From Halieaceae bacterium (GTDB taxonomy: Bacteria > Pseudomonadota > Gammaproteobacteria > Pseudomonadales > Halieaceae), in NCBI GenBank assembly GCA_024640505.1, contig JAHEEV010000003.1, forward strand, positions 1-64,000: a DNA stretch of 64,000 bases. The letters run 5' to 3'. Shown piece after piece: positions 11,237 through 25,199 of this stretch. Under the pieces are notes generated by a model. That model was not told where the DNA came from and did no database searches. It was given only the letters and a program-made list of their open reading frames with translations. The position numbers were made by a program, and so were the translations under genes. Numbering within the stretch: position 1 is the stretch's first letter; every line of letters starts with the position of its first letter.

Positions 11237-11701
11237 ATGATCGGGAACCGAACGGACCACAATATGAAGAAGCCAAGCAAATCATCACCAGAGAAGGAAA
11301 TGCTGAAGTCATTCGAAGCGGCGGGACTGATTGAATACCTGGAGTACCTGCAGTCTGGCAAACGCATCATGATGACCAACTTCAAGGCAGGGGTCGCAAA
11401 AGGCCTGGGCCTGACCCTGGGCATGTCAGTCGTGCTCGCTATCATGGCATGGGTCCTCACACTGCTGGTTGACCTGCCCGTTATCGGTGAGTATGCAAGC
11501 CAGGTAGAGGATTACATGAATGAATACCGCGAGAGTACCAATTACACCGACGAATTTTACGAAATGAATGAACTGCTGCGGAACATCGACGAGAATACCA
11601 GCCTGCCGGAAACGGCGGATATGATAGATGGCAGCACGTCAGAAACAGAGGAAACAGAAGAAAAGCCTCAGGAAGCATCAATGCCGGAGCTTCCGGAATA
11701 G
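11237..11701 (+). CDS. DUF5665-like membrane protein
   Basis: 154 residues (145 if ATG 11264 is used; both have only weak ribosome sites). The pattern LIEYLEYLQSGKRIMMTNFKAGVA, then KGLGLTLGMSVVLAIMAWVL and VDLPVIGEYA matches DUF5665: a short amphipathic N-terminus, a hydrophobic hairpin and a cytosolic tail. The C-terminus is Glu/Thr-rich and probably disordered. Function unknown. It converges on the end of the cox operon. Confidence 0.65.
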   Translation: MIGNRTDHNMKKPSKSSPEKEMLKSFEAAGLIEYLEYLQSGKRIMMTNFKAGVAKGLGLTLGMSVVLAIMAWVLTLLVDLPVIGEYASQVEDYMNEYRESTNYTDEFYEMNELLRNIDENTSLPETADMIDGSTSETEETEEKPQEASMPELPE

Positions 11702-11766: not shown

Positions 11767-11988
11767 TTACCGGGGTGATGGCACCGGGCATTCGGAATCA
11801 ACCGGTTGGACTTTTTCGCTCGTTCCACTGCTTTGTAAACCCTTACCCTGCGCGATCAGTGCAGCCACCAACTGGCATCCGGTGCAGCACATGCCCTGTC
11901 TTTCACCGCCGAGTGTGATGCTATAGGCCAGGCCAGCTCTGTGAGGCTGGCCGCAGTGGAAACAGGACCGGTAATCGGTGCTTCTCAT
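11767..11988 (-). CDS. Orphan metal-binding protein resembling the N-terminal Cys domain of copper P-type ATPases (PF12156-like)
   Basis: 73 residues. The start ATG overlaps the sufU-like stop by 4 bp (ATGA). Cysteines C9-F-H-C12 and C34-C35-T-G-C38 lie in a context (SCFHCGQPHRAG, MCCTGCQLVA) like the soluble domain preceding CcoI/FixI-type copper ATPases (PF12156). No membrane segment and no ATPase follow: the protein ends after a Ser/Pro-rich tail. It is the last gene of the probable CODH operon. By homology it may bind Cu(I); a role as copper donor for the Mo-S-Cu cluster is inference. A longer frame extends to 12156 but only by overlapping sufU. Confidence 0.7.
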   Translation of the reverse strand: MRSTDYRSCFHCGQPHRAGLAYSITLGGERQGMCCTGCQLVAALIAQGKGLQSSGTSEKVQPVDSECPVPSPR

Positions 11989-12425
11989 CTTCCGCCTGCT
12001 TTGTCGATGGCTTCGGCAAGGGCTTCCCATGACAACAGCACACATTTTTTTCGCGCCGGATGCTCTCGCACCGCCGCAAGCGCCTGCAGATCTGCCGGCA
12101 GGCCTGCTTCCGTTGCCGTCTCGGCAGCGCCAAACCAGGCGCCTATCTGATCGCACAGTCGCCTTGTCGTGTCAGTACTCGAAGCGGTGACTGCTTCCGT
12201 CATCATGGATGCCGAGGCGATGCAGATGGCGCAACCGCGGCCTCGGAACATCACATCCCGGATCAGGTCACCTTGCATGAAAATGCCGATCTCGACCTCA
12301 TCGCCACACCTGGGGTTGGCGCCGCGCGCGACCGCATCTGCCCCGGCAATGGGTCCATCACTGCGGTTTCTGGGGTGCCGGTAGTGGTCCAGTAATGTCT
12401 CCTTGTACAGATCCTGGGCGATCAT
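11985..12425 (-). CDS. sufU: SufU-type sulfur acceptor / Fe-S scaffold protein
   Basis: 146 residues. The pattern LLDHYRHPRN, NPRCGDEV, GRGCAICIASASMMTEAV and FPARKKC-like EHPARKKCVLLSW identifies SufU rather than IscU: it has the SufU-specific insertion between the second and third conserved Cys. Putative Zn ligands are C40, D42, C65 and C128; an extra C68 is unusual. SufU accepts persulfide sulfur from SufS. It overlaps sufS upstream and the PF12156-like gene downstream by 4 bp each. No sufB, sufC or sufD is present, so a general Fe-S assembly role is unlikely for this copy. Confidence 0.85.
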   Translation of the reverse strand: MIAQDLYKETLLDHYRHPRNRSDGPIAGADAVARGANPRCGDEVEIGIFMQGDLIRDVMFRGRGCAICIASASMMTEAVTASSTDTTRRLCDQIGAWFGAAETATEAGLPADLQALAAVREHPARKKCVLLSWEALAEAIDKAGGR

Positions 12426-13687
12426 TCACAGAATACCTTTTGAGCTGTGAGAATGGCGTCTATGAGGGCCTCGACGTCCGACGCATCGTTATAGATGGAA
12501 AAGCTGGCGCGGGTCGTGGCCGCAAGCCCCAGGTGATTGAGCAGCGGCTGCGCACAATGATGCCCCGCACGAATGGCGACGCCCGCTTCACCCGCAACTT
12601 GCGCCAGGTCGTGTGGATGCAGGCTACGGTGCGTAAACGAGACGATTCCCGAGGAGGGAAGCTCGGGATGGGGCAGCAGGCTGATATCGGGAATTGTCCT
12701 TAACTGCTCTGCGGCAAATTGTGTCAGCGAGGCGATATGCCTGCGCACTCCCTCGCGGCCGAGCCCGGCAAGATATTCAGCCGCGGCCGCAAAGCCGGCT
12801 GCGCCAGGCATATCGGGCGAACCCGCCTCGAAGCGCGCGGGGATTTCAGCCCAGCAGCTCTCCCTGGTAGCATCTCCCACGATGTCGACCATGCCGCCGC
12901 CAACCTGCAGGGGCTCCATATCAGCCAACCTGTCCTCCCGGCCGTAGAGCAAACCGATGCCGGTCGGTCCAAACATCTTGTGAGCGGAAAATACGAGAAA
13001 ATCGCAGCCCATTGCGGAGACATCGATTTCCAGGTGTGACACGGACTGGGCTGCATCCACCAGAACAGGAATCCCGTGTTCATTTGCCTCGGCACACAGC
13101 GCCGCAACGGGGTTTTCAATGCCCAGGACATTGGAGACGTGGCAGAGCGCGATGAATTTGGAGCGCTCTGCAAACAGCTCCCGGGAACTGTCCAGATCCA
13201 GTTGGCCCTCCCTGGTCAGTTCAATGAATCTGAGTTCAGCGCCGCTTTCGCGACAAACCCGCTGCCAGGGCAAATAGTTTGAATGGTGTTCCATGCGGCT
13301 GACCCACACCACATCGCCACTGCACAAGCGCGGTTTCAGCCAGCCACTGGCGACCATGTTGATGGCCTCGGTGGCAGATGCGGTAAAAACCAGCGCTTCA
13401 GGGGAGGAGGCGCCAATGAAGTGTTGTAGCGTCCGCCGTGCACGCTCGTATTGGCTGGTGGCCTGCTCCGCCAGGGGATAAAGTCCGCGGTGAATGGGTG
13501 CGTAGCACTGCGTATAGCTGCTCGTGATGGCATCTACGACCGCGCCGGGCTTATGTGTGGTTGCAGCGTTGTCCAGATAATGCAGACGTTGCGGGTCAGT
13601 GGCGTGTTCGAAAATCGGAAAATCGCGCTTTACACGCTCCGGGTCGAACGACTCGGGCTCACGGATGGAATGTACTGCCGGTGACAT
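12422..13687 (-). CDS. sufS: SufS-type cysteine desulfurase
   Basis: 421 residues, class V aminotransferase fold. The PLP lysine is K237 in FSAHKMFGPTG; the HH motif is at RMEHHSNYLPW and the catalytic Cys is C378 in RAGHHCAQPLL, characteristic of group II (SufS) desulfurases. It starts 3 bp after the XdhC-like gene and overlaps sufU by 4 bp. It mobilises sulfane sulfur from cysteine. Placement within the CODH operon suggests delivery to the bridging sulfide of the Mo-S-Cu site or to a molybdenum cofactor, rather than housekeeping Fe-S assembly. Confidence 0.9.
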   Translation of the reverse strand: MSPAVHSIREPESFDPERVKRDFPIFEHATDPQRLHYLDNAATTHKPGAVVDAITSSYTQCYAPIHRGLYPLAEQATSQYERARRTLQHFIGASSPEALVFTASATEAINMVASGWLKPRLCSGDVVWVSRMEHHSNYLPWQRVCRESGAELRFIELTREGQLDLDSSRELFAERSKFIALCHVSNVLGIENPVAALCAEANEHGIPVLVDAAQSVSHLEIDVSAMGCDFLVFSAHKMFGPTGIGLLYGREDRLADMEPLQVGGGMVDIVGDATRESCWAEIPARFEAGSPDMPGAAGFAAAAEYLAGLGREGVRRHIASLTQFAAEQLRTIPDISLLPHPELPSSGIVSFTHRSLHPHDLAQVAGEAGVAIRAGHHCAQPLLNHLGLAATTRASFSIYNDASDVEALIDAILTAQKVFCE

Positions 13688-13690
13688 TCC

Positions 13691-14524
13691 TCAGCTCCGG
13701 TTGATCGACTTCAGTTGCGGCTCGGTATCGGGCTTCTCCAGCAGCCGGTCGCGCATCAGCCCGCCGCTGCCGCCGCGACGTAGCATCACGATTTCGCTGA
13801 TGATGCAAAGCGCAATTTCTTCCGGTGAGCGCGGTGCCAGGTCGATCCCGGAAGGGGTGACCACCCGCTGGATATCCTGGTCAGAAAAGCCCTGCCTCTC
13901 AAGGTAGTCAAGCACCAGGCGGGACCGTTTTCGACTTGCAATCAGTGCGATATATCTGGCGTCGGAGTGTAGCGCGCGACTGATCGATTCGTGATCGCCC
14001 TTGTGTTGCGTGGCGATGACCACGTAGTCATCCGGCTTGGGTTGCAGCTGCGCATAATCCAGGTCATCTGTAATCAGGCGACTCGCCTGCGGGTATTTTT
14101 CCCAGTCGACCCCCGGATCATTGACGATGACCCGCAGGCCCATCAGGTCGCCGATGATGCACAGGCTCTCGGCGACACGGCCGTGACCCATGATCCAGAG
14201 CCCCGGTTTGGGCAGTACCGGCTCGATGTACACGCGCATACTGCCTCCGCAGGGCATGCCCGCTCCCAGTATCTCGTCGTCCAGGTCGATGTCGAGCATA
14301 GCGGTTTCATTCTGGCTGATGCACGCCAGCGCCTGCTCGCAGGTACTGGATTCCGCGCAACCGCCGCCGACCCAGCCGGCCACAACACGACCCTCGCTAT
14401 CGATCACCGCCTTCGACGAGGTTTTCGCTGAGACCGACCCCCTGGTCTCAACGACCGTGGCGATTGCGAATGGATCTCCGGCACTCTGCAGCGCCTGGAT
14501 GACATCAAATATTTCCTTGGCCAT
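13691..14524 (-). CDS. XdhC/CoxI-family maturation factor (second copy)
   Basis: 277 residues. The N-terminal XdhC/CoxI domain contains AIATVVETRGSVSAKTSSKA and AGWVGGGCAES; the C-terminal Rossmann-like XdhC_C domain has LWIMGHGRVAESLC and ends SPEEIALCIISEIVMLRRGG. XdhC proteins bind molybdopterin cofactor and aid insertion and sulfuration in xanthine-dehydrogenase-family enzymes; CoxF/CoxI play this part in CODH. It lies 8 bp after the mocA-like gene and 3 bp before sufS. Confidence 0.85.
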   Translation of the reverse strand: MAKEIFDVIQALQSAGDPFAIATVVETRGSVSAKTSSKAVIDSEGRVVAGWVGGGCAESSTCEQALACISQNETAMLDIDLDDEILGAGMPCGGSMRVYIEPVLPKPGLWIMGHGRVAESLCIIGDLMGLRVIVNDPGVDWEKYPQASRLITDDLDYAQLQPKPDDYVVIATQHKGDHESISRALHSDARYIALIASRKRSRLVLDYLERQGFSDQDIQRVVTPSGIDLAPRSPEEIALCIISEIVMLRRGGSGGLMRDRLLEKPDTEPQLKSINRS

Positions 14525-14532
14525 GGTCTTCC

Positions 14533-15183
14533 TTATCCCGTCATATTCAGCACTTCAGGTGCATCAACGCTTGCGGACAGTCGCTGCTGTGCACTGGCGT
14601 AGGCCTCCGGCGTGTCGAGGTCTATCAGCACGTGGTCATTCGGCATCTCCATGACAGTGACCAGTTCCGGATTCTTCTCTATCAGCCGTTTGCATCCAAG
14701 ATTCCTGCGATCAGCCAGGATCGCCTGGCGGTGCTGATAGTCCAGCACGACAGGGTTTCCCCGCTGCCCCTTGTAGACGGGGACCATTATCGAGGTGGGA
14801 CAGCGGGCAAAGCCACGGGCGATGGCCCCGATATCGTCCACATCGAGCAGGTACTGATCTGACAGACATATCATGACGCCTTTGCAGGGCCTCTTCAGGG
14901 CGGCGAGGCCGCGATACACGGAGGTCATCTGACCCTCGCGATAATCTTCGTTGTAGACGATACGAGCCGGTATGCCCTGGAGCAGTTCACGTGTGGCCGC
15001 CTGCTCATGCCCGACGACCACCACCAGTTCTGCCAGCCCGGATCGGGCAAGGGTCTCGGCGGTACGCCTGACCAGGGGGGTGCCTCCAATGGGCAGCGTG
15101 AGCTTGTTGATAGCGCCCATACGGCGCGACTCACCCGCCGCCAGCAGTATGGCAGACAGATTTTTGTTATCCGATCGGCTCAT
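14533..15183 (-). CDS. mocA: MocA-like molybdenum cofactor cytidylyltransferase
   Basis: 216 residues from ATG 15183, which overlaps the preceding stop (ATGA); an upstream in-frame start at 15207 lies inside the previous gene. The nucleotidyltransferase signature LAAGESRRMG (14-23) and KLTLPIGGTPLVRRT is followed by CLSDQYLLDVDD and VPVYKGQRGNPVV. MocA converts Mo-molybdopterin to the cytosine dinucleotide form (MCD), the cofactor form in CODH. Its presence in the operon suits local cofactor supply for CoxL. Confidence 0.85.
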   Translation of the reverse strand: MSRSDNKNLSAILLAAGESRRMGAINKLTLPIGGTPLVRRTAETLARSGLAELVVVVGHEQAATRELLQGIPARIVYNEDYREGQMTSVYRGLAALKRPCKGVMICLSDQYLLDVDDIGAIARGFARCPTSIMVPVYKGQRGNPVVLDYQHRQAILADRRNLGCKRLIEKNPELVTVMEMPNDHVLIDLDTPEAYASAQQRLSASVDAPEVLNMTG

Positions 15184-16109
15184 GTGGCTGCCTTGCTCCC
15201 GCAGCAACCGGACTCCGTCGGGTTAGGGCGTGGCGCAGTGGGGCGTTGGGGCCTCGGGGCAGTGGTTGCATCAGCCGATGTTGCGTTACCGTCCGGCGAG
15301 AGTGGTTCTGCCGGTGCCGCCAGCTCAGCATGGCGCGCGGCAACCAATCCGGCCAGCACCGAAACGGCTATTTCTTCCGGGGAAGTTGCGCCGATAGCCA
15401 GGCCTGCCGGCGCGATAATGGCGTCTACAGCCTGCGGGTCATGACCCTTGTCTTTCAACAGCTGTTTCAGCTTGTCCGCTTTCCGTTTGCTGGCGATGAA
15501 GGCGCGGTAGTAAGTCTCAACCCCGAGCGCTGCCTGCAGCGCCGCCTGGTCACCCTTGCCCTGGGTCGCCACCACGACCAGCGGTGCACCCGAACATCGG
15601 GCGTCATCGGTATCGAAACCTGCGATGATCTGGTCGGCCCAGGGGAAACTGGCCTCCTCCGCTGCCGGTGAGGCGACCGTCACGGCGAATCCTGCGAAGT
15701 GCGCGAGGGTAGCCAGTGATTTGGCAACTTCGGAGGAGCCAAATAACAGTAATGCGGGCCGCGACAGCATAGGTTCGATAAAAATATCGAGTGAGCCGCC
15801 GCTGTAGCAGGCCGACTTGAAGCCTGCGACATCGTCATCCGGGTGTTCGTCCTCCACGGGGCTGACGCGGATCAGCTGCGGCTGACCATCGCGCAGTGCC
15901 TGTTTGGCGGTTTTGATCACCGCCGGCTGGACACACCCGCCACCGATCCAACCGTGAATATCGCCTGATGCAGTCACCAGCGCCTTGTAGCCGGGTTGCG
16001 CCGAGGTGGGCGGTTTGCAGCGGACCACGGTCGCCAGCGCATAGGGCGTGTGGTCCGCTTCAAGCTGCCGGGCTTTATCGGCGAGTGCTCTGTCTTTGAA
16101 CATGGTCAT
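15180..16109 (-). CDS. coxF: XdhC/CoxF-family maturation factor (first copy)
   Basis: 309 residues; GAGG sits 9 nt before an alternative ATG at 16103, which may be the true start. The N-terminus YALATVVRCKPPTSAQPGYKA and GWIGGGCVQPA and the C-terminus PAGLAIGATSPEEIAVSVLAG are XdhC/CoxF. It carries a C-terminal extension rich in Ala/Pro/Thr ending GCCGSK, with vicinal Cys that could bind metal or sulfur. It lies 13 bp after coxE and overlaps mocA by 4 bp. The gene symbol is assigned from order, not proven orthology. Confidence 0.8.
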   Translation of the reverse strand: MTMFKDRALADKARQLEADHTPYALATVVRCKPPTSAQPGYKALVTASGDIHGWIGGGCVQPAVIKTAKQALRDGQPQLIRVSPVEDEHPDDDVAGFKSACYSGGSLDIFIEPMLSRPALLLFGSSEVAKSLATLAHFAGFAVTVASPAAEEASFPWADQIIAGFDTDDARCSGAPLVVVATQGKGDQAALQAALGVETYYRAFIASKRKADKLKQLLKDKGHDPQAVDAIIAPAGLAIGATSPEEIAVSVLAGLVAARHAELAAPAEPLSPDGNATSADATTAPRPQRPTAPRPNPTESGCCGSKAAT

Positions 16110-16122
16110 TAACCTCTGTCGA

Positions 16123-17319
16123 TCACAGTCGGGTCAGGGCAGGCTCCAGTGCCTGCAGACTGTCCAGGTTGTGTGCCGGCGCAAACAGGTCCAGATAAGG
16201 GAGCGCTGCCTGCATCCCCTGGCTGACCGGCTCGTACCCACCGCGCCCGAGTAAAGGATTCAGCCAGACCAGCTTGCGACAACGCGGCTTGATTCTCGCA
16301 AGCTGTGAGGCCAGATCTTCGGGATTCCCCGTGTCCAGCCCATCGCTGACGATAACGGCAATAGTTCGACTGTTCAGTATCTGACCGTATTTGTCATTGA
16401 AAGTGGCAAGGCTTTCACCGATGCGCGTACCCCCCGACCAGCCCTGTGAGACCATGGCCAGGCTGTTGCGGACACGCATCAAATCGGTTTGTTTCAGTGC
16501 CTCGGTGATGGGCAGCAGGTGGGTGTGGAAGGCAAAAACTGACACGTCACGAAAAATCGATACCAGGCCCCGGGCGAAGCGCAGAAAGAAAAAGCTGTAC
16601 ATCGACATCGAGCGACTGACGTCGACGATAAGCACCAGCCGTGGTTGCCGTTTGACCCGTTCCGTGTAATTGAGTACCAGGGGTGTACCGCCAAAGCGCA
16701 GGCTGCCACGCAGGGTCTGGCGCAGGTTGATCCTGTTGCCTGTTTTGCTGATGCGCTGTCTGCGGATGGCGCGTTTGCGCATCTGTCTGGCCAGGCGATC
16801 GACCAGCGCTTCGACAGCCCGCATCTCATCGGGATCGATCAGCGCCTGGAAATCTGTCTGCGCCAGAGAGGCCTTGAAGCTGGCGCCTTCGCGGGTGCCG
16901 CTGCCATCGAGCGCCTCGTCTCCGTCGTCTGCGCACTGACTGTCGGCATCGCTGTTGCGCACTGACTCCTGCTGCGCACCTGCCGCCTGACTTCGGGCGG
17001 CGGGTCGCTTCTTCGCCACGCCACCGGTCGCAGTGCTATAGCGGCTTTTAACGTTACCCGGGAGCCAGAAGGCATCGAAAAGCTCGTCAAAGCGCTGCCA
17101 GTCATCCTGATCGGAGCACAGCAGGGCTCGCAAGCCCCACCTGAGGCGCTTGCTGTCTCCCAGCCCGCACTTCAGGGCCACATTCTGGGCGTCGAGCTCC
17201 TCTGCCACGCCTACCCGAAAGTTGTTGCTGCGGGCGAGACGGACGAATTCCACCAGCCGCATCTGCAGAAAATCGGCGAGTTGCCGGTCATCCAGCGCTG
17301 TCAGGCTCTGTCCACTCAC
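16123..17319 (-). CDS. coxE: CoxE-like VWA-domain protein
   Basis: 398 residues. The N-terminal helical region (CoxE/YehP-type) is followed by an acidic linker (residues 110-150) and a von Willebrand A domain with an intact MIDAS D233-V-S-R-S237 and VSDGLDTGNPEDL. CoxE works with the MoxR-type ATPase CoxD in building the CuSMoO2 cluster of CODH. The 4-bp overlap with coxD supports coupled translation. Confidence 0.9.
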   Translation of the reverse strand: MSGQSLTALDDRQLADFLQMRLVEFVRLARSNNFRVGVAEELDAQNVALKCGLGDSKRLRWGLRALLCSDQDDWQRFDELFDAFWLPGNVKSRYSTATGGVAKKRPAARSQAAGAQQESVRNSDADSQCADDGDEALDGSGTREGASFKASLAQTDFQALIDPDEMRAVEALVDRLARQMRKRAIRRQRISKTGNRINLRQTLRGSLRFGGTPLVLNYTERVKRQPRLVLIVDVSRSMSMYSFFFLRFARGLVSIFRDVSVFAFHTHLLPITEALKQTDLMRVRNSLAMVSQGWSGGTRIGESLATFNDKYGQILNSRTIAVIVSDGLDTGNPEDLASQLARIKPRCRKLVWLNPLLGRGGYEPVSQGMQAALPYLDLFAPAHNLDSLQALEPALTRL

Positions 17320-18221
17320 AAGGCACGCGCCACCAGTCGCTCAACTTCGAAGGGCTCCAACCTGACGCTGTCTTCACGTGTTTTCAGCAGGCAGACCAGG
17401 GTATCGAGCAGTAGCTGGGGCTCGGTATCCAGGCTGTTGATGCCCAGTTTGAACAAAGCCGCCGCCCAATCAAGGGTTTCAGCAACCCCGGGCTTCTTGC
17501 GCAAATCGAGTTTCCGCAGGTCCTGCACAAAGGCCACGACCTGGCGGGCCAGCTGAGGTCCAATCTCCGGTAGACGGGCGTTGACGATGCGCAGCTCCTT
17601 GTCGAACTCGGGATAGTCGACATAGTGATAGAAGCAGCGCCGGCGCAGGGCGTCGCTGAGCTCACGCGTGCCATTGGATGTTATGACGACATAGGGCTTG
17701 CTGGTCGCGGGTATCGTTCCGAGTTCCGGAATGCTCACCTGGAAATCAGACAGCAGTTCCAGCAGGTAGGCTTCGAATTCCTCATCCGCCCGATCAATTT
17801 CATCAATCAACAGCACCGGGGACTGGGGCTGGGTAATGGCCGCGAGCAGCGGCCGTTCCAGCAGAAAGCGTTTACTGAAGATGGCCCGCTCGGCACTCTC
17901 TGCGGAGACGTGGTCCTGCTCCAGTAATTTGATGGAGAGCAGCTGGTGCTGGTAGTTCCACTCGTAGACCGCCGAATTGACATCGAGCCCCTCATAGCAC
18001 TGCAGCCTGATGAGGGGGCAGTCAAATATACGGGCGATGACGTGGGCAATTTCAGTTTTACCAACGCCGGCGTCCCCTTCGAGCAACAGCGGTCGCTGCA
18101 TTTCGGTGAACAGCAGCAGGCTGGCGCTCAGGCTGCGTTCAGCGATGTACCCCGCATCAGCCAGTCTGGCCTGCAAGGTGGTAATGCGGTCTTCTCCCTC
18201 CATTGCCCGATGGTCCGTCAA
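17316..18221 (-). CDS. coxD: CoxD-like MoxR-family AAA+ ATPase
   Basis: 301 residues. Walker A is GDAGVGKT (49-56) and Walker B VLLIDEIDRADEEFEAY (D140, E141); the sensor region is VVITSNGTRELSDALRRRC. CoxD is the chaperone-like ATPase needed, in Oligotropha, for introducing sulfur and copper into the CODH active site. It lies 24 bp after coxG and overlaps coxE. Confidence 0.9.
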   Translation of the reverse strand: MTDHRAMEGEDRITTLQARLADAGYIAERSLSASLLLFTEMQRPLLLEGDAGVGKTEIAHVIARIFDCPLIRLQCYEGLDVNSAVYEWNYQHQLLSIKLLEQDHVSAESAERAIFSKRFLLERPLLAAITQPQSPVLLIDEIDRADEEFEAYLLELLSDFQVSIPELGTIPATSKPYVVITSNGTRELSDALRRRCFYHYVDYPEFDKELRIVNARLPEIGPQLARQVVAFVQDLRKLDLRKKPGVAETLDWAAALFKLGINSLDTEPQLLLDTLVCLLKTREDSVRLEPFEVERLVARAL

Positions 18222-18245
18222 ATGAGTCCCAGTGCAGAGTCCTGA

Positions 18246-18827
18246 TCACTTGCCACCAAATAGACTCCGCAGCCAGCCGATGAATACGGTCCAGGCGAAT
18301 TTCAGGCCGTTGATCTCCTGGGGTTGCTCCGCGATGTGTTCGCGCGCTTCCTCCGCCTCACGCCCTTCACCCATGGCCGCGATGTGATCGGCGAAATTTG
18401 AACCGAACTGATTCAGTATCTGGTCTGCAACCTGCATCATCATGCGGCCACCCATGCTGGCGGCCTTGCCTGTGACTGTCACCGACGCATTCCCTTTCAG
18501 GGCACTCATGCCCCCGTCGGTCTCGATGATGCTGGCAGTCAGATCCATCGAAGCAGAGGAACTGCCCTTGCTATCCTGGCCTTTCCCGATCAGGTTTATC
18601 TCGCGCTTCACCGCGTCGACGCTGTTAATCACAATATCGCCGTTGAAGGCCATGGCGGCGGGCCCGATTTTCATCTTCACCTTGCCCTTGTAATTGTTGT
18701 CATCGATCTTGTCAGTGATTTCGGCGCCCGGCATGCAGCTGGCCACGCCAGGTATATCCTGCAAAAACTCCCATCCCTGGGTGGTCGACCCGGGTAGGTC
18801 AAACTGTTTATCTAAATCGACTTGCAT
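18246..18827 (-). CDS. coxG: CoxG-like SRPBCC protein
   Basis: 193 residues. An N-terminal START/SRPBCC fold (FDLPGSTTQGWEFLQDIPG, VASCMPGAEI) is typical of carbon monoxide dehydrogenase subunit G; the C-terminus FAWTVFIGWLRSLFGGK is a probable membrane-binding helix. CoxG binds lipophilic quinone and is thought to link CODH to the membrane respiratory chain. It sits between coxL and coxD. Confidence 0.9.
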   Translation of the reverse strand: MQVDLDKQFDLPGSTTQGWEFLQDIPGVASCMPGAEITDKIDDNNYKGKVKMKIGPAAMAFNGDIVINSVDAVKREINLIGKGQDSKGSSSASMDLTASIIETDGGMSALKGNASVTVTGKAASMGGRMMMQVADQILNQFGSNFADHIAAMGEGREAEEAREHIAEQPQEINGLKFAWTVFIGWLRSLFGGK

Positions 18828-18893
18828 TCACATATCTCCAATGAGGGGAAGGTCAGGTCCCGAATTATCTGCGGTCGTTGTTCCAACGGTTTT

Positions 18894-21299
18894 TCAGGCA
18901 TGCTGATCCAGTCCCAGTTCATGCACCTTCTGCCACACGCGATAGGCACTGTGTGGCATATTCATATGGGTCACGTCGAGATGCGCGAAGGCATCCACGA
19001 CCGCAGAGGTAAAGCAGGGAATGCTCCCCACGTGGGGAGACTCCGCGACGCCCTTGGCCCCCAATGGGTGGTGCGGTGAAGGGGTCACGGTGTAGTCGGT
19101 CTCCCAGTGCGGCGTCTCTACGAAGGTCGGGACGAAGTAATCCATCAGGGTATTGCCCAACAGATTGCCCTGCTCGTCGAAAGGCATCTCCTGCCCCATG
19201 GCAACGGCGAAGCCCTCGGTCAGGCCACCGTGTATCTGGCCCTCGATAATCATCGGGTTGATCCGCGTGCCGCAGTCATCGAGTGCGTAAAATCTGCGCA
19301 CCGACGTTTCGCCAGTGGCCTTGTCGATGTCCACGACGCACAGATAGATGCCAAAGGGGTAGGTGAAGTTGGGCGGATCATAGTAATCGACCGCTTCGAG
19401 GCCGGGCTCCATGCCTTCCGGCACATTGTTGTAGGCTGCCCAGGCGACTTCCTTCATGGTTTTTTCCTGGCCGGGAACACCTTTTACCTTGAAACGGTCC
19501 ACTTCCCACTCCAGGTCGTTCTCACTGACCTCGAGCAGGTGAGCCGCGATTTTTTGCGCCTTCGCGCGAATTTTACGCGCGGCAACTGCAGTGGCTGCTC
19601 CCCCCACCGGGGTCGATCTCGAGCCGTAGGTGCCCAGGCCGTAAGGTGCGGTATCGGTATCGCCCTCTTCGATGGAAATCTCATCGGAAGAGATACCCAG
19701 TTCGGTGGCGATGATCTGGGCGTAGGTGGTCTGGTGGCCCTGACCCTGGGTGATGGTGCCCATTCTCGCCATGACGCTGCCCGTCGGGTGCACGCGAATC
19801 TCAGCGCTGTCGAACATGCCGACACCCAGGATGTCGCAGTTGCGTGACGGACCTGCGCCCACGATCTCTGTGAAAGTGCACAGGCCGATACCCATCAGTT
19901 CACCCTGCGCTCGCTTCTCCTGCTGCTCCTTGCGCAGTGCTTCGTAGTCCACGGCATCGAGCACCTTCTCCAGCGCGGTATGGTAATCGCCGCTGTCGAG
20001 TTCCCAGCCCAGGCAGGTCTGGTAGGGGAACTGCTCCGCCTTGACGAAATTGCGCCGCCGGATTTCGGCTTTATCGATACCGAGCTTCTGCGCCAGGACA
20101 TCGATGGTCCGCTCAATCACATAGACGGCTTCTGTTACCCGGAAGGAGCAGCGGTAGGCCACGCCGCCGGGCGCTTTGTTGGTGTAGACCCCATCGACAT
20201 TGAGATGTGCCACCGGTATGTCGTAGGAGCCGGTGCAAATGTGCATGAGCCCCGCCGGGAATTTGGACGGGTCGGCACAGGCATCAAAGGCCCCGTGGTC
20301 AGCCAGCACATTGACACGCAGGGCCTTGATGCGACCTTCGCTGTCGGCCGCAAGCTCGCCGGTCATGTGGTAGTCCCGGGCGAAAGCGGTGGTGGATATA
20401 TTCTCCATCCGGTCTTCCACCCACTTGACCGGCACGCCCAGCACGATGGAAGCCACGATAGACACCACATAGCCGGGGTAGATGCCGACCTTGTTACCGA
20501 AACCGCCGCCAATATCCGGCGAGACGATGCGAATCTTGCTTTCGGGTATCCCGGACAGCATCGATACCACGGTGCGCACCACATGCGGCGCCTGGGAGGT
20601 GAGATGGACGGTAAGGTGCTCGTTGATTTTGTCGAAGGAGGCGACACAGCCGCAGGTTTCCATGGGGCAGGGGTGTACGCGCGGGTAGTACATCTCCTGT
20701 TTGACCGTTATCTCTGCCTGCTCGAAGACCCGGTCAGTCGCCTCTTTTTCCCCGGCCTGCCAGTTGAAGATGTGATTGTCATGCACGCGTTTACTGTGCG
20801 CCCCGTCCATTTTGCCTACCAGGTCCTCGCGCAGGATGGGGGCGTCGTCATCCATTGAACGGTGTGGGTCGACCAGGACATCAAGCTCTTCGTACTCGAC
20901 CTCGACCAACTCAATGGCATCGGCCGCAATGTAGCGGTCGTCGGCAATGACCACGGCCACTTCCTGGTACTGGAAATGAACCTTCTCGTCTGCCAGCACG
21001 GCCTGCACGTCGCCGGCCAGGGTGGGCATCCAGTGCAAATTCAGCGGTTTCAGGTCGTCCGCAGTGAGCACTGCGTGCACGCCGGGCAGGGCCAGTGCTT
21101 TTTCCTTGTTGATGCTCTTGATACGGGCGTGGGCGTAGGGGCTCCGGACCATGTCCGCAAACAGCATTCCCGGTAACTTGAGGTCATCGGTGTATCTGCC
21201 CGTGCCCTGCACGAAACGGGCGTCTTCCTTGCGCTTGCGCGAACATCCGACGCCCTTGATGGAATCTTCGCGTTCCTGTACTTCAGCTGCATTATCCAT
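18894..21299 (-). CDS. coxL: CoxL: aerobic CO dehydrogenase large subunit, form I
   Basis: 801 residues, close to the roughly 809 of Oligotropha CoxL. The diagnostic form I active-site loop AYRCSFR is present with Cys384, which ligates copper in the [CuSMoO2] centre; form II enzymes have AYRGAGR instead. Other MCD-binding blocks are present: PDIGGGFGNKVGIYPG, MARMGTITQGQGHQTTYAQI, YGSRSTPVGGAATAVAA and the C-terminal NPMIIEGQIHGGLTEGFAVAMGQE and LGAKGVAESPHVG (Glu of the catalytic base). It oxidises CO with water to CO2, passing electrons to CoxS and CoxM. It lies 11 bp after coxS. The start gives the expected N-terminus GVGCSRKRKEDARFVQGTG. Confidence 0.97.
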   Translation of the reverse strand: MDNAAEVQEREDSIKGVGCSRKRKEDARFVQGTGRYTDDLKLPGMLFADMVRSPYAHARIKSINKEKALALPGVHAVLTADDLKPLNLHWMPTLAGDVQAVLADEKVHFQYQEVAVVIADDRYIAADAIELVEVEYEELDVLVDPHRSMDDDAPILREDLVGKMDGAHSKRVHDNHIFNWQAGEKEATDRVFEQAEITVKQEMYYPRVHPCPMETCGCVASFDKINEHLTVHLTSQAPHVVRTVVSMLSGIPESKIRIVSPDIGGGFGNKVGIYPGYVVSIVASIVLGVPVKWVEDRMENISTTAFARDYHMTGELAADSEGRIKALRVNVLADHGAFDACADPSKFPAGLMHICTGSYDIPVAHLNVDGVYTNKAPGGVAYRCSFRVTEAVYVIERTIDVLAQKLGIDKAEIRRRNFVKAEQFPYQTCLGWELDSGDYHTALEKVLDAVDYEALRKEQQEKRAQGELMGIGLCTFTEIVGAGPSRNCDILGVGMFDSAEIRVHPTGSVMARMGTITQGQGHQTTYAQIIATELGISSDEISIEEGDTDTAPYGLGTYGSRSTPVGGAATAVAARKIRAKAQKIAAHLLEVSENDLEWEVDRFKVKGVPGQEKTMKEVAWAAYNNVPEGMEPGLEAVDYYDPPNFTYPFGIYLCVVDIDKATGETSVRRFYALDDCGTRINPMIIEGQIHGGLTEGFAVAMGQEMPFDEQGNLLGNTLMDYFVPTFVETPHWETDYTVTPSPHHPLGAKGVAESPHVGSIPCFTSAVVDAFAHLDVTHMNMPHSAYRVWQKVHELGLDQHA

Positions 21300-21310
21300 G
21301 TCCAGTCACC

Positions 21311-21787
21311 TCAGGCTTGTTGTAGCGTTTGCGCGGCGGTTTGTACCGCCTTGACGATGTTCTGATAGCCGGTACAGCGGCACAGGTTGCCGGACATACC
21401 CCAGCGGATCTCCTCTTCTGTAGGATTCGGGTTCTCCTGCAGAAAGCGATAGGCCCTGATCAGCATGCCTGGGGTGCAGAAGCCGCACTGCAGTCCGTGC
21501 TCTTCTATAAAAGCCTGCTGTACGGCATGCAGCCCGTCGGCGTCCGCCAGCCCTTCTACCGTTTTGAGCTCCGCACCATCGGCCTGCACGGCAAGCACGG
21601 TGCAGGATTTGACGGACTTGCCATCCAGGTCGACCGTGCAGGCACCGCAGTGCGAGCTCTCGCAGCCGATATGGGTGCCGGTCAGGCTGAGTGTCTCCCG
21701 GATCGTATGAACCAGTAACTCCCTGGGCTCCACCAGGGCGTCGACGTGCTTACCGTTCAGGTTGAATGAAACATGCTGCTTCGCCAT
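21311..21787 (-). CDS. coxS: CoxS: [2Fe-2S] small subunit of CO dehydrogenase
   Basis: 158 residues. The plant-ferredoxin-type cluster uses C42, C47, C50 and C62 ([17 protein letters not shown]); the helical domain cluster uses C101, C104, C136 and C138 ([16 protein letters not shown]). All eight ligands are intact, at almost the same positions as in Oligotropha CoxS. It carries electrons from the Mo-Cu site to FAD in CoxM. There are 4 bp between coxM and coxS. Confidence 0.97.
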
Positions 21788-21791
21788 GGTG

Positions 21792-22655
21792 TTATCCTCT
21801 TGCCTGTTGCAGTGCTGCTCGAATGGAGCGGCGGGCCATTTCAGCCGCCATGTGGGATTTGTACTGGATGTCTCCTCTCAGGTCCTCTGCGGGGTCACAG
21901 GCCGCGATGACCTCGGCCGCGGCCTGTTCGATCAGTGCGTCATCGATGACCTTGCCGCGCAGTACGTTCTCCGCAGCTTCTGCCCGTATCGCCATGGGTG
22001 CCACGTTGGTCAAAGCGATTCTTATGTCGCGACAGACGTCGCCGTCCAGTTCGACGACGACGGGCGAGCCGGCTACGGCATAATCACCCGTTTTTCGTTT
22101 CAGTTTGCTGTAGCCGTGGCCGACACCCTGCCTGATCACGGGTACGCGCAACTCCACCAGAATTTCGTGCTCCTGGAGATCATTCCAGTAGGTCCCAAGG
22201 AAGAAGCCATTCGCCGGCTGCTGGCGCTCACCGCCCGGACCCTGCAGGACCAGGGTTGCATCCAGCGCCAGCATGACCGCCGGGTGGTCGTTGCCCGGGT
22301 CGCCGTGGACGACATCCCCGCCGATGGTGCCGCGGTTCCTCACCTGTGGATCGGCCACCAACCTGGCCGCCTCCACCAGAAGCGGGCAGTGCTGCTGCAG
22401 AATCTCGGATTCGATCAGCTCGTTTTCCGTGGTCATGGCGCCGATACAGATAGTATCGCCCTCGAGGCGGATGCCCCTGAGCTCTTCTATCCCATTGATA
22501 TCTATGAGGGTTGGCGGCTCCGCGAAGCGCAATTTCATCATTGGCAGGAGGCTGTGCCCTCCCGCCAGCAACTTCGAGTCTTCATGTGCGCCGAGCTGGT
22601 TGATGGCATCCTGGATGCTGGTGGCTTTGTGATATTCAAATTCCGCTGGAATCAT
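21792..22655 (-). CDS. coxM: CoxM: FAD-binding medium subunit of CO dehydrogenase
   Basis: 287 residues. FAD motifs AGGHSLLP (31-38) and TIGGDV (110-115, followed by [11 protein letters not shown]) match CoxM. It accepts electrons from CoxS and delivers them to quinone, possibly with CoxG. It is the first gene of the operon; a candidate promoter lies about 40-70 bp upstream. Confidence 0.95.
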
Positions 22656-22808: not shown

Positions 22809-23849
22809 TCAGCGTTGCGAGAAGGTCTCGCGCAACTCCCGCGCGGCCGCAACCATCGCCTGGAGTTTGCCAAAGGCCGCTTCGCGGGAAAGGTATTTCA
22901 TCCCGCAGTCCGGCGCCAGGATGATACGGCGTTCGTCGACGTGAGTGAGCGCCCTCAGGACGCGGTTCTTGATCACCTCCACGCTTTCGACTTCCTCGGT
23001 CGACAGATCGAGAACCCCCAGCAGAATATCCTTTCCCTGAAGGGCGTCGAGCACCTCGCAGTCGAGGTTGCTTTGTGCTGTCTCCACCGACACCTGGCTG
23101 CAGCAGGCGCTCGCAAGTTCGGGGAGGTAGGAGTAACCCTCCGGGCGCTCGTGAATCAGCGCCGCGTAGCCAAAACAGATATGTACACAGGTCTTGCCGT
23201 CGACCCCATCGAGAGCCCGGTTCAGCGCTTCCAGGCCATATTCACGGGCCTGGTCGGGCCTGGCCTGCATATAAGGCTCATCCAGTTGCACGACGTCGGC
23301 ACCCGCGGCGAAGAGGTCGCGGATTTCTTCATTGACCGCGGCAGCATAGCCCAGCGCTGCGTCCCGGCGCGAGGGGTAGTAATCGTTCTGCGCCTGTTGT
23401 GACATGGTGAAGGGCCCGGGAACGGTGATTTTCACCTTGCGATCGGTATTTGCGCGGAGGAATGTCAGATCCTCGACGGTGACGGGGTGACGACGCTCGA
23501 TGGGCCCAACGATGCGCGGCACGTATACCGGCTCGCCGCTCCGATCCAGCGCCTCGCCAGGATTGTCCAGGTCGATTCCGGAGAGCGCCGTCGCGAAATG
23601 GTTCGAGTAACTTTCGCGACAGATCTCGCCGTCGCTGATGATATCCAGGCCGGCACGCTCCTGGTCGAGAATGGCCAGCCGGGTCGCGTCACGCTGGGCG
23701 CTTTCCAGCAGATCCGGCGCCACGCGCCAGAGTTCGCGGGCTCTTGTTCTGGGGGGGAAACGTCCGGACAGCTTTTTGCGATCTATCAGCCATTCCGGCT
23801 GTGGATAGCTACCGACGATCGTGCAGGGGAAGAGTGGTAACTCAGACAT
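22809..23849 (-). CDS. MetE-core-like zinc methyltransferase
   Basis: 346 residues, only the C-terminal catalytic barrel of cobalamin-independent methionine synthase. The N-terminus reads TIVGSYPQPEWLIDRKKLSG. Zn ligands are all present: H223-x-C225 (CVHICFGY), E256 (QVSVET) and C315 (LAPDCGMKY). Other blocks are ITVPGPFTMS and QLDEPYMQARPDQ. Short MetE homologues include core MetE proteins, epoxyalkane:CoM transferases and other thiol-alkylating enzymes. It sits 3 bp downstream of a PaaK-like ligase in a catabolic gene set, so transfer of a methyl or alkyl group during substrate breakdown is as likely as methionine synthesis. Confidence 0.75.
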   Translation of the reverse strand: MSELPLFPCTIVGSYPQPEWLIDRKKLSGRFPPRTRARELWRVAPDLLESAQRDATRLAILDQERAGLDIISDGEICRESYSNHFATALSGIDLDNPGEALDRSGEPVYVPRIVGPIERRHPVTVEDLTFLRANTDRKVKITVPGPFTMSQQAQNDYYPSRRDAALGYAAAVNEEIRDLFAAGADVVQLDEPYMQARPDQAREYGLEALNRALDGVDGKTCVHICFGYAALIHERPEGYSYLPELASACCSQVSVETAQSNLDCEVLDALQGKDILLGVLDLSTEEVESVEVIKNRVLRALTHVDERRIILAPDCGMKYLSREAAFGKLQAMVAAARELRETFSQR

Positions 23850-23852
23850 GGG

Positions 23853-25199
23853 CTATTCCTCGAGTTTGGCGACGGCGGGATTCTCACTATCAGAATAATC
23901 AACCAGCTTTGACTTGTAGGTCTCGCGAGGCAGTGTGCCATGGGGCGCGAAGCTCACGTCTGTGGTGACCAGGAGTCTGGACCTGATTTCGTCGATCATG
24001 CGGGATCGCAGCCCCTCCGGGGCGCGCGGGGTATCCTTTCCGAGTTCGATGACGACCGGTAACGGCGGCGTTTGCAGCACACCGCGCGACCGCGGCCGCA
24101 CCTGAAACATGCCGGAGACAGCCGGCGTGAACTGCTCGAGAATACTGCGAATCGCCGTCGGGAAGAGATTGACCCCCCGTACAATCAGCATGTCATCGGT
24201 GCGTCCCACGCAGCGAATTCTCGGCCCGGTTCTGCCGGTGGGGTTCTCCGCCATCGTGACGATTACGTGATCCCTGCTGCGGAAGCGCAGCAGCGGCATG
24301 GCCTCACGCTGTAACGCGGTGTACACGAGCTCGCCTTCAGCGCCGTCCTGCCAGTCAATGGGCTCGCCGCTGACGGGGTCGATGAGCTCGACGTGAACAA
24401 ATCCGCGCGGCATGAAGTGCATGCCCTTGCCATCATCATCCTCCGCCCAGGCGGAGAGCGTAATGTCTCCAATGCCCATGGACTCCCGGACGACGCAGCC
24501 AAAAGCCTCCTGTATCTTGCCCCGCACGAGAGGGTCACCGCCCCCGGGTTCACCCGCCGTGATCATATTCTGCAGGCCCAGGGAGTGTGTCTCGACACCG
24601 TGCTGATGGCACCAGTCGATGAGATAGAGGCCGTAGGAAGGTGTGCAACTGATGCCGGTGGCCCCGAGCTTCTGGATGGCGGTGACCATGCGTTCCGTGT
24701 TGCCGGTTCCCACGGGGATGACAGAACAGCCGATCTTGTCGAAACCGTAGTAGACCGCTCCGGCAACGAAGGGGCCGGCGTTGAACCCCACCACCACTTT
24801 CTGGCCGCGCGAAAATCCTGCTGCCGTGTAACCCCGTGCCACGTTGGTTGCATACATCTCCAGGTCATGAGCGGTCAAACCCAGGTAACAGGGGGTGCCG
24901 GTTGTACCGCTGGTGCTGAATACCCGTCGCAAATCCGTCTCACTCGCGGCAAGGTGCGCGCCAAACGGCGGCGAAGAGGCCTGGGTGGCCCTGATTTCAT
25001 CCTTTTCGGTAAAGGGCAATCTGGCAATGTCTTCAAGCCCGCCAACGTCATCCGCCGAGTGGAAACCGGCCTCCCCGAGTTTCTGCTGGTAGAACGACGA
25101 GTTCTGCAGCAGGTAGGTGATCTGTTCGAGGTACCGCCCCTTGTCGAGCTCGTACTGTTCCGCGACAGGTCGTCTCTCTACTTCCGGATCATAAATCAT
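23853..25199 (-). CDS. PaaK-like acyl-CoA ligase (AMP-forming)
   Basis: 448 residues. The AMP-binding loop FSTSGTTGTPCYLG, the block ESMGIGDITLSAW and the A8-like hinge RCVGRTDDMLIVRGVN, with NLFPTAIRSILEQ, are those of phenylacetate-CoA ligase relatives. It activates a carboxylic acid, probably aromatic, to a CoA thioester in the cytoplasm. It is co-directional with and 3 bp upstream of the MetE-like gene. Substrate unknown. Confidence 0.85.
   Translation of the reverse strand: MIYDPEVERRPVAEQYELDKGRYLEQITYLLQNSSFYQQKLGEAGFHSADDVGGLEDIARLPFTEKDEIRATQASSPPFGAHLAASETDLRRVFSTSGTTGTPCYLGLTAHDLEMYATNVARGYTAAGFSRGQKVVVGFNAGPFVAGAVYYGFDKIGCSVIPVGTGNTERMVTAIQKLGATGISCTPSYGLYLIDWCHQHGVETHSLGLQNMITAGEPGGGDPLVRGKIQEAFGCVVRESMGIGDITLSAWAEDDDGKGMHFMPRGFVHVELIDPVSGEPIDWQDGAEGELVYTALQREAMPLLRFRSRDHVIVTMAENPTGRTGPRIRCVGRTDDMLIVRGVNLFPTAIRSILEQFTPAVSGMFQVRPRSRGVLQTPPLPVVIELGKDTPRAPEGLRSRMIDEIRSRLLVTTDVSFAPHGTLPRETYKSKLVDYSDSENPAVAKLEE

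Follow-up and report, generated by a model that had tools for sequence, protein, structure and literature searches.

In the DNA stretch analysed here (64,000 nucleotides, positions 1 to 64,000 of contig JAHEEV010000003.1 in assembly GCA_024640505.1 of a Halieaceae bacterium; hereafter the window), we found a form I CO dehydrogenase (CODH) operon whose cox genes are followed by genes for a cysteine desulfurase (sufS), a sulfur acceptor (sufU) and a small Cys-rich protein. The best explanation, to which we assign a probability of roughly 0.6, is that this is a distinct type of form I operon that encodes possible donors of the two ligands that the Mo-S-Cu centre receives late, with SufS and SufU as candidates for the sulfur and the small protein for the copper. 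The host assembly (G000) is a 4.17-Mb draft metagenome-assembled genome (MAG) of 257 contigs that is 91% complete, and the window is part of its contig C76.

A twelve-gene row from coxM to a small metal-binding-like protein

A sequence-only reading of the window had described twelve linked minus-strand genes with a largest gap of 66 bp (after coxL), comprising a form I CODH, a SufS and a SufU with intact active sites and a Cys-rich PF12156-like gene, with no sufBCD nearby. Open reading frames (ORFs), gene order and family searches confirmed this description throughout, as follows from the 5' to the 3' end of the row:

21792..22655, minus strand: coxM, FAD subunit of form I CODH (PF00941 174 bits, PF03450 84.8)
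21311..21787, minus strand: coxS, 2[2Fe-2S] subunit (PF01799 118.5, PF00111 29)
18894..21299, minus strand: coxL, Mo-Cu subunit, form I (TIGR02416 1477.8 bits, cut-off 991.15; AYRCSFR motif)
18246..18827, minus strand: coxG, SRPBCC-type (PF06240 70 bits)
17316..18221, minus strand: coxD, AAA+ ATPase (PF07728 45.1)
16123..17319, minus strand: coxE, VWA protein (PF05762 193.8)
15180..16109, minus strand: coxF, XdhC family, with a linker and CCGS tail at the position of the YHS domain of relatives (PF13478/PF02625)
14533..15183, minus strand: mocA-like (MobA-like) nucleotidyltransferase (PF12804 116.4; TIGR03310 142.5, under its cut-off of 186.45)
13691..14524, minus strand: xdhC2, second XdhC-family protein, immediately before sufS (PF13478 91.8, PF02625 65.2)
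12422..13687, minus strand: sufS, group II cysteine desulfurase (TIGR01979 488, cut-off 475.1; K237, C378; 5xt5 chain A, E 1.7e-105)
11985..12425, minus strand: sufU, sulfur acceptor (PF01592 70.7, cut-off 22; C40, D42, C65, C128, R125; 5xt5 chain D, E 5.7e-25)
11767..11988, minus strand: small stand-alone protein of 73 amino acids (aa), CxxC...CCxxC, resembling the metal-binding domain at the N-terminus of a cation ATPase (PF12156 42.5 bits, cut-off 27, positions 1-44 of 86)

Reading downward from coxM, the intergenic distances are 4, 11, 66, 24, -4, 13, -28, 8, 3, -4 and -4 bp, and the genes are predicted to be co-transcribed. The mocA ORF opens at 15207, and an inner ATG at 15183, which is probably its start, turns the -28 bp between coxF and mocA into a 4-bp ATGA overlap. 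The assignment to form I is based on the CoxL score, the AYxCSFR motif and the presence of coxM-coxS-coxL together with coxD, coxE and coxF. SufS scores above its family cut-off and holds both the pyridoxal phosphate lysine (K237) and the persulfide cysteine (C378), and SufU combines NifU_N family membership with C40, D42, C65 and C128, which we take to be the positions of the Bacillus subtilis zinc ligands. No sufB, sufC or sufD gene stands beside the pair in the window or in the other molybdenum (Mo)-linked loci described below, and the pair does not qualify as a SUF system. Across the whole of G000 we found no SUFBD protein and no NifU_N protein other than the operon SufU, which may reflect an assembly gap at 91% completeness. 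Among the relatives, G001 and G002 carry sufBCD, sufS, sufA and a sufE-like gene, and G041 has a NifU_N protein between SufS/IscS-like and SufA-like genes.

The row ends at its 3' side with the small gene, and the next gene, for a DUF5665 protein (11237-11701), is on the opposite strand. Upstream of coxM, MetE-like and PaaK-like genes lie on the same strand (22809-25199). Because the ~17 kb that precede coxM in G041 contain nothing that matches them (G002 covers only 0.4 kb there), coxM is likely the 5' end of the operon. A promoter and terminator scan of the operon found sites in no higher number than in shuffled sequences, and thus neither supports nor rules out a separate promoter.

Recurrence of the row and its restriction to one CoxL clade

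Among 145 related genomes searched, five (the window's own counted) have a coxL above the form I cut-off. The complete row, including the small gene, recurs in G002 (same genus; locus L034) and G041 (same family; L033), with CoxL 96%, SufS 75-76%, SufU 74-75% and the small protein about 50% identical to those of the window, while the rows of G128 and G144 break off at contig ends (at coxD and coxG). Since the row recurs in this way and the ratio of nonsynonymous to synonymous rates (dN/dS) of the small gene is 0.26-0.27 for each of the three pairs (over 48 codons, with partial saturation of dS), we do not regard it as a chance arrangement.

By scanning genome contigs for SufU we found, in the best 80 of 122 loci, cox-linked sufU in L041-L045, L047 and L065 (L041 = G002, L043 = G691, L045 = G1077). 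In further form I clusters, those of Saccharospirillum impatiens (L045) and MAG OFTM308 (L044), sufS-sufU again follows xdhC. L047 has xdhC and no coxL in range, and L065 is a short contig that does not include coxL. The co-occurrence of coxL with sufS and sufU that the sequence-only reading called for is thus seen in G002, G041, G1077 and L044; its extension to the 73-residue gene held in G002 and G041 and not beyond the window's clade. Two loci stand apart by taxonomy. The cox cluster of L044, of clade 2 (see below), is in a MAG labelled Nitrospirota, with a CoxL 81% identical to the window's, and may be a case of mis-binning or of transfer, two readings that are indistinguishable here. L178 (G892:C152), from a genome of another family (f32), has a CoxL 96% identical to the window's, again by transfer or mis-binning.

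To place these loci, we took a census of all coxL above the TIGR02416 cut-off from four overlapping genome sets (145 relatives; phylum, 398; class, 369; order, 390), which gave 44 distinct form I loci with flanks. Their CoxL motif is AYxCSFR in 37, SYRCSFR in six and AYRCSLR in one (G620). Both sufS and sufU are present in 4/44 (G000, G002, G041, G1077). In a quick-method CoxL tree, form I falls into two clades and every carrier of sufU, with or without sufS, is in clade 2, in which the usual gene order is L-G-D-E-F-mocA-xdhC. Leaving out the window, L044 (found through SufU) and the nine loci on early-ending contigs, carriers make up 12/19 of clade 2 and 0/15 of clade 1 (p 1.4e-4), or, counted by genus, 6/12 versus 0/14 (p 0.004); these p-values are optimistic because kinship above the genus remains. 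A less fair count, with the window and L044 in and G679 and G786 out, gives 14/19 versus 0/15 (p 9.8e-6). The G1080 contig has an xdhC-like gene, ends before the sufU position of its kin and remains undecidable, and a sufS-like match in L223 (28% identity, opposite strand) was excluded from the counts.

SufS and SufU as a candidate sulfur source

In a tree of 46 SufS sequences, the six form I-linked SufS and those of two other loci, L185 and L186, form one clade (100/100) beside the SufS of one Bacillota SUF operon. A second clade of Mo-linked SufS (L184, L189, L190; 100/100) lies inside SUF sequences, and on this tree SufS is therefore judged to have been recruited to molybdenum operons at least two times. 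The SUF SufS of G001 (L183) and G002 (L181) branch away from the form I-linked clade, which argues against recent copying from the genus's own SUF operon. K237 and C378 are kept in 46/46 SufS, and C40, D42, C65, R125 and C128 are invariant in 11/11 Mo-linked SufU aligned. H357 of SufS, which we take to be the position of the B. subtilis zinc-swap histidine, is also kept in 46/46, Escherichia coli included, and for that reason does not discriminate.

The same pair occurs outside form I, always without sufBCD in the following five loci. In L185 and L186 the order is coxS-L-M-D-E-mocA-xdhC-sufS-sufU, with the tail as in the window, and in L189 and L190 it is xdhC-sufS-sufU-coxG-S-L-M-D-E. L184 (546-8869; G001, the window's genus) has genes for an FAD, a 2Fe-2S and an Mo subunit together with xdhC, an ORF of 550 codons that is MocA-like in part, sufS and sufU. 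In addition, L091 (a Rhodanobacter MAG) has form II-like coxM-L-S with a divergent sufU. The large-subunit motif is AYRGAGR, presumably the form II type, in L185, L186, L189, L190 and L091, and AFRGYG in L184. As a control we used 40 non-form-I loci of the xanthine oxidase family (XOR; 26 from the relatives list and 14 from the phylum list, seven of them under 14 kb with contigs that end early), of which one carries sufS and none sufU. That one locus (L234, G055:C23; window's family) is a non-CODH molybdenum hydroxylase operon with xdhC and a MocA-like gene that ends inside sufS at the contig end, and its large subunit is 79% identical to that of G001. With sufS in just one of 40 controls and sufU in none, the linkage of the pair to molybdenum hydroxylase operons is, on these gene neighbourhoods, uncommon, yet made more than once.

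We rejected a CODH-specific origin of the pair and, as far as sufS-sufU is concerned, the idea that copper explains the tail in its entirety, as the same pair is found in these non-form-I operons. To our knowledge, non-form-I enzymes of this kind hold no copper; for form II this is not settled, and the motif of L184 speaks against CODH. The shared need behind the pair would likely be the sulfur ligand of the molybdenum. We also rejected the idea that SufU is rare in this class, which would have made its mere presence telling, since SufU is widespread in SUF operons: a match at E 1e-10 occurs in 286/350 genomes (those of about 1e-16 in that count are presumably IscU), 20 loci hand-picked from ~150 listed comprise 15 SUF operons, four Mo-linked loci and one cut off, and 4/4 plasmid contexts inspected among 88 records are SUF operons. 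One SUF operon of a Caldilineae MAG (L095:1339-5633) has coxD-like and coxE-like genes directly after its sufS-sufU.

In 10/12 Mo-linked sufS loci an xdhC gene immediately precedes sufS (exceptions L184 and L234). With sufU counted as well as sufS, xdhC is the nearest recognised gene on that side in 14 loci (the window, L033, L034, L042-L045, L047, L065, L162, L185, L186, L189 and L190), as opposed to L184, L234, L091 and the f15 genus. In Rhodobacter capsulatus, the desulfurase NifS4 sulfurates the XdhC-bound cofactor before its insertion, according to the text seen of PMC2997495. Given this adjacency and this precedent, the simplest reading is a route from SufS to SufU to an XdhC2-bound cofactor. 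SufS would withdraw sulfur from cysteine, and SufU would accept it at its zinc site and carry it to the molybdenum cofactor on an XdhC-family chaperone, where the sulfido ligand would be loaded. XdhC2 is most likely this chaperone, because it is encoded directly before sufS. We consider it likely from gene context that SufS-SufU supply the sulfur of the molybdenum. This sulfur branch would be a common module that can serve several enzymes of the xanthine oxidase family, and it would have been recruited at least twice. In G691 and G647, which have sufU without sufS in the cox row, SUF operons elsewhere encode their own SufS and SufU (L193, L192); clusters with sufU alone would draw on the housekeeping SufS, and SufU, not SufS, would be the more constant part. 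PMC4240915 (section 23) gives the sulfur source of CODH as not known, with missing maturation factors still to be identified.

A small protein and a CoxF-borne YHS domain as candidate copper modules

The small protein has six Cys, five of which (C9, C12, C34, C35, C38) are kept in the two relatives, where PF12156 scores are 41.2 and 37.3 bits. Its gene overlaps the end of sufU in all three genomes (ATGA in the window and G041, GTGA in G002). It matches no ATPase domain, and thus is not a P1B copper ATPase, and has no PF04945 (YHS) match at E 0.1. The only other PF12156 copy found in the host forms the N-terminus of a P-type ATPase of 813 aa, which we take from its neighbours to be CcoI (no family search was run on that ATPase). 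G001, G003 and G004, of the same genus and with no coxL over the form I cut-off, have only such an ATPase-like copy. Matches of the small protein on Halomonas and Aeromonas plasmids are probably also ATPase starts, and the 30-kb and 6-kb stretches inspected there contain no cox gene.

In ten clusters related to the window's, a YHS domain (PF04945) is found at the C-terminus of CoxF: L043/G691, L044, L045/G1077, G458, G860, G647, G534, G620, Paraburkholderia aromaticivorans pBN2 and Caballeronia SBC2 (seven confirmed by Pfam at 36.8-60 bits, where the cut-off is 30.3, and three recognised from the motif only). In the window, L033, L034 and L042, CoxF has no YHS domain and stops after a linker with a terminal CC motif, while in L043 and L165 CoxF has both the CC-motif linker and the YHS domain. 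The two features exclude each other: the small gene is in three clusters, CoxF-YHS in ten and both in none (L042 ends at sufU, so that the small gene cannot be judged there), and the small gene is found in the window's clade only. As a weak control, no xdhC product with a PF12156/YHS-like motif was found in 48 non-form-I loci, in only 12 of which an xdhC gene was seen. The predicted secondary structure is E-E-E-E-H in the small protein and YHS alike, at modest model confidence.

In Oligotropha carboxidovorans, coxE and coxF mutants make a CODH with sulfane sulfur and essentially no Cu, and the coxE mutant also lacks the CoxF protein, as given in the portion of PMC4240915 consulted. Together with the mutual exclusion of small gene and CoxF-YHS, these mutants suggest that the small gene may encode a copper module, either split off or a replacement. 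The small CC-x-GC (YHS/TRASH-like) module would present Cu(I) to CoxF/CoxE and hence to CoxL, and in the window's clade a free-standing PF12156 protein would take the place of the CoxF-borne YHS domain of the sister clusters. We see this copper route as plausible, with even chances.

Contrary evidence and alternative explanations

Several observations weigh against these routes. For the sulfur half, both sufS and sufU are missing from 22 of the 35 form I clusters that can be decided (a call that needs at least 1.5 kb of sequence beyond the last recognised cox gene, which leaves 9/44 loci undecidable), and sufU occurs without sufS in 9/44 loci, namely G691, G647 and seven genomes of genus f15 g42 (for G144, on its second contig). 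G679 and G786, which count among the 22, have sufS-sufU in a form II operon immediately upstream. No sufS or sufU was found near clade 1 form I clusters or the pHCG3 cluster, and CODH as such therefore does not need the pair. Within clade 2, G860 and G534 have xdhC2 and no sufS or sufU in the following 2.2-2.4 kb, and G620, G458 and G502 have neither gene. The SufU tree (53 rows) is poorly resolved, with form I and L185/L186 SufU grouped at 82/85, L065 and L162 outside the form I group and the f15 SufU elsewhere on a long stem. The Oligotropha model, in the part of PMC4240915 seen, places sulfuration on the folded apoenzyme with CoxD, and by analogy the sulfur hand-over point may be CoxD or CoxL instead of XdhC2. 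The same partial text proposes for CoxF of Oligotropha a copper site of its own.

The copper half meets further difficulties. The metal bound by PF12156 and YHS proteins may be zinc or one other than copper. A motif scan found no YHS and no small gene in clade 1 loci, f15 loci, G679/G786, G502 or pHCG3, and as the f15 clusters and G679/G786 have neither, the copper module is not universal even within clade 2. Profile comparison of the small protein with YHS gave a probability of 59% (E 9e-5) over 23 columns. The structure model of the small protein is weak, with a predicted local distance difference test (pLDDT) score of 64, and a fold search with it gave no hit at E 0.001; ribosome entries rank first (E >=0.5), and a phenol hydroxylase (2inp) is at rank 25. 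The ribosomal chains are presumably eL24, which the output itself does not say. The eL24, TRASH and YHS domains share one fold, with which this outcome agrees and which it does not prove.

These results leave four other explanations to be weighed. The pair could serve to assemble the two [2Fe-2S] centres in CoxS, or Fe-S clusters generally under CO growth, via scaffolds encoded elsewhere: SufS-SufU normally feeds SufBCD, CoxS holds two [2Fe-2S] clusters, and G002 has sufBCD on another contig. However, no sufB, sufC or sufD-like gene accompanies the pair in Mo-linked loci, the SUF operon of G002 has its own SufS and SufE-like gene (L181), the pair mostly follows xdhC and not coxS, and a coxS-like [2Fe-2S] gene occurs in 33/39 control XOR loci without the pair, so we find this explanation unlikely. 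Slightly less probable still is that the pair serves the cofactor earlier, for example with sulfur for molybdopterin synthesis. The operon does contain mocA, and cysteine desulfurases feed molybdopterin synthesis in other bacteria; yet the pair associates with xdhC and XOR-family genes, a weak point since no search for moaD/moeB was made. The least probable of the four is that the tail stands beside cox by chance, or hitch-hikes with it as a module for sulfur stress in general, and plays no part in CODH maturation, as the many clusters with neither gene might suggest; the gene order shared across several families, the fact that both SufS clades go with molybdenum hydroxylase operons and the strong CoxL clade effect all contradict it.

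The alternative with the most weight concerns the small protein, which could be a zinc or general metal binder, or the remnant of an ATPase, with no connection to the copper of CODH. It covers about half a Pfam domain (44/86 positions), is seen in one clade only and evolves fast (52-54% identity to relatives over 48 codons), and its C-terminal third is not conserved among them. Its dN/dS ratio, its five conserved Cys, the start overlap with sufU retained in three genomes, the presence of the ATPase copy alone in G001, G003 and G004 and its consistent absence beside CoxF-YHS stand against this, and we rate the alternative as a serious possibility, at around one chance in three. Compared with these alternatives, candidate donors of sulfur and copper remain our preferred reading, while the interpretation put forward by the sequence-only reading stands in part, without support for a delivery system dedicated to CODH. 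A pair lacking an Fe-S scaffold does co-occur with form I cox in other genomes, mostly after xdhC, and its SufS differs from the SUF SufS of two same-genus genomes. On copper that reading may be right, with indirect support from the exchange of the small gene for the CoxF YHS domain, which it had not seen; on the other hand, its presence in form II and another molybdenum hydroxylase operon, the sufU-only clusters and the form I clusters with neither gene speak against exclusive dedication.

Comparison to known systems

A close parallel is NifS4-XdhC of R. capsulatus, where a cysteine desulfurase likewise supplies sulfur to the cofactor on an XdhC-family chaperone, there for xanthine dehydrogenase. 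In the passages of PMC2997495 consulted, NifS4 is believed to perform another essential function and a SufU-type carrier is not mentioned, whereas the window has desulfurase, SufU and xdhC all in one row. The coxMSLDEFGHI cluster on pHCG3 of Oligotropha (Afipia) carboxidovorans shares with the window a form I CODH, CoxD, CoxE, CoxF and a second XdhC-like protein. It differs in its order (L-D-E-F-G versus L-G-D-E-F in the window), and in its 30-kb stretch no desulfurase or SufU gene is annotated and no PF12156/YHS-like motif was found. With SUF operons of the Bacillus subtilis type (solved pair 5xt5) the window pair shares families, residues and the order S-U, but it has no SufB, SufC or SufD alongside and its SufS groups with other Mo-linked SufS.

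The small protein has the CxHCG...MCCxGC pattern of the N-terminal PF12156 domain of CcoI/FixI-type copper ATPases (CcoI being the name we presume for this PF12156-bearing type), but stands alone with 73 aa, no ATPase and no second half of the Pfam domain. With YHS/TRASH domains, CoxF-fused in sister clusters, it shares a CC-x-GC before a helix and after a hairpin (in weak models), while it is itself below PF04945 detection.

Neighbouring genes in related clusters

A Met-rich membrane protein (6-10% Met) is encoded at L159:3962-4633 (minus strand), L158:14872-15564 (plus strand) and L250:19882-20568 (plus strand). It is located after sufU in G691 and after xdhC2 in G860, and a similar-looking one lies between mocA and xdhC in Paraburkholderia. 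Those of L159 and L158 have no Pfam match, and a copper importer is possible. A gene of the 2-oxoglutarate-Fe(II) oxygenase family (PF13759) follows sufU in Saccharospirillum (L045:10415-11131, plus strand) and is also present within the form I cox cluster of G908 (L171:5730-6413, minus strand). In this same genome of the f15 genus, the cox cluster ends with sufU and, convergent to it, a gene that matches MoCF_biosynth weakly (L171:3255-4741), and in G144, also of the f15 genus, the cluster's sufU encodes the only NifU_N protein found.

Implications for CODH maturation

In open-access literature searched by title and abstract start (subscription papers and preprints were outside the search), neither the linkage of the sulfur pair nor that of YHS or the small gene to these operons is described. 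We tentatively propose, at slightly less than even odds, a complete and separable donor set, in which SufS-SufU-XdhC2 would provide sulfur and a swappable YHS/PF12156 module Cu(I), with the sulfur half as a bacterial counterpart of the eukaryotic molybdenum cofactor sulfurase, recruited at least twice from SUF. If true, this donor set would answer where CODH gets its bridging sulfur and copper, and the operons name the candidates: SufS and SufU for the one, a YHS or PF12156 module for the other. Since the isolate Saccharospirillum impatiens DSM 12546 (L045) carries both the sulfur pair and CoxF-YHS, gene removal can be tried there. By also occurring in operons of form II and of another molybdenum hydroxylase, the pair would qualify as a cassette of wider use for sulfuration of the molybdenum cofactor.

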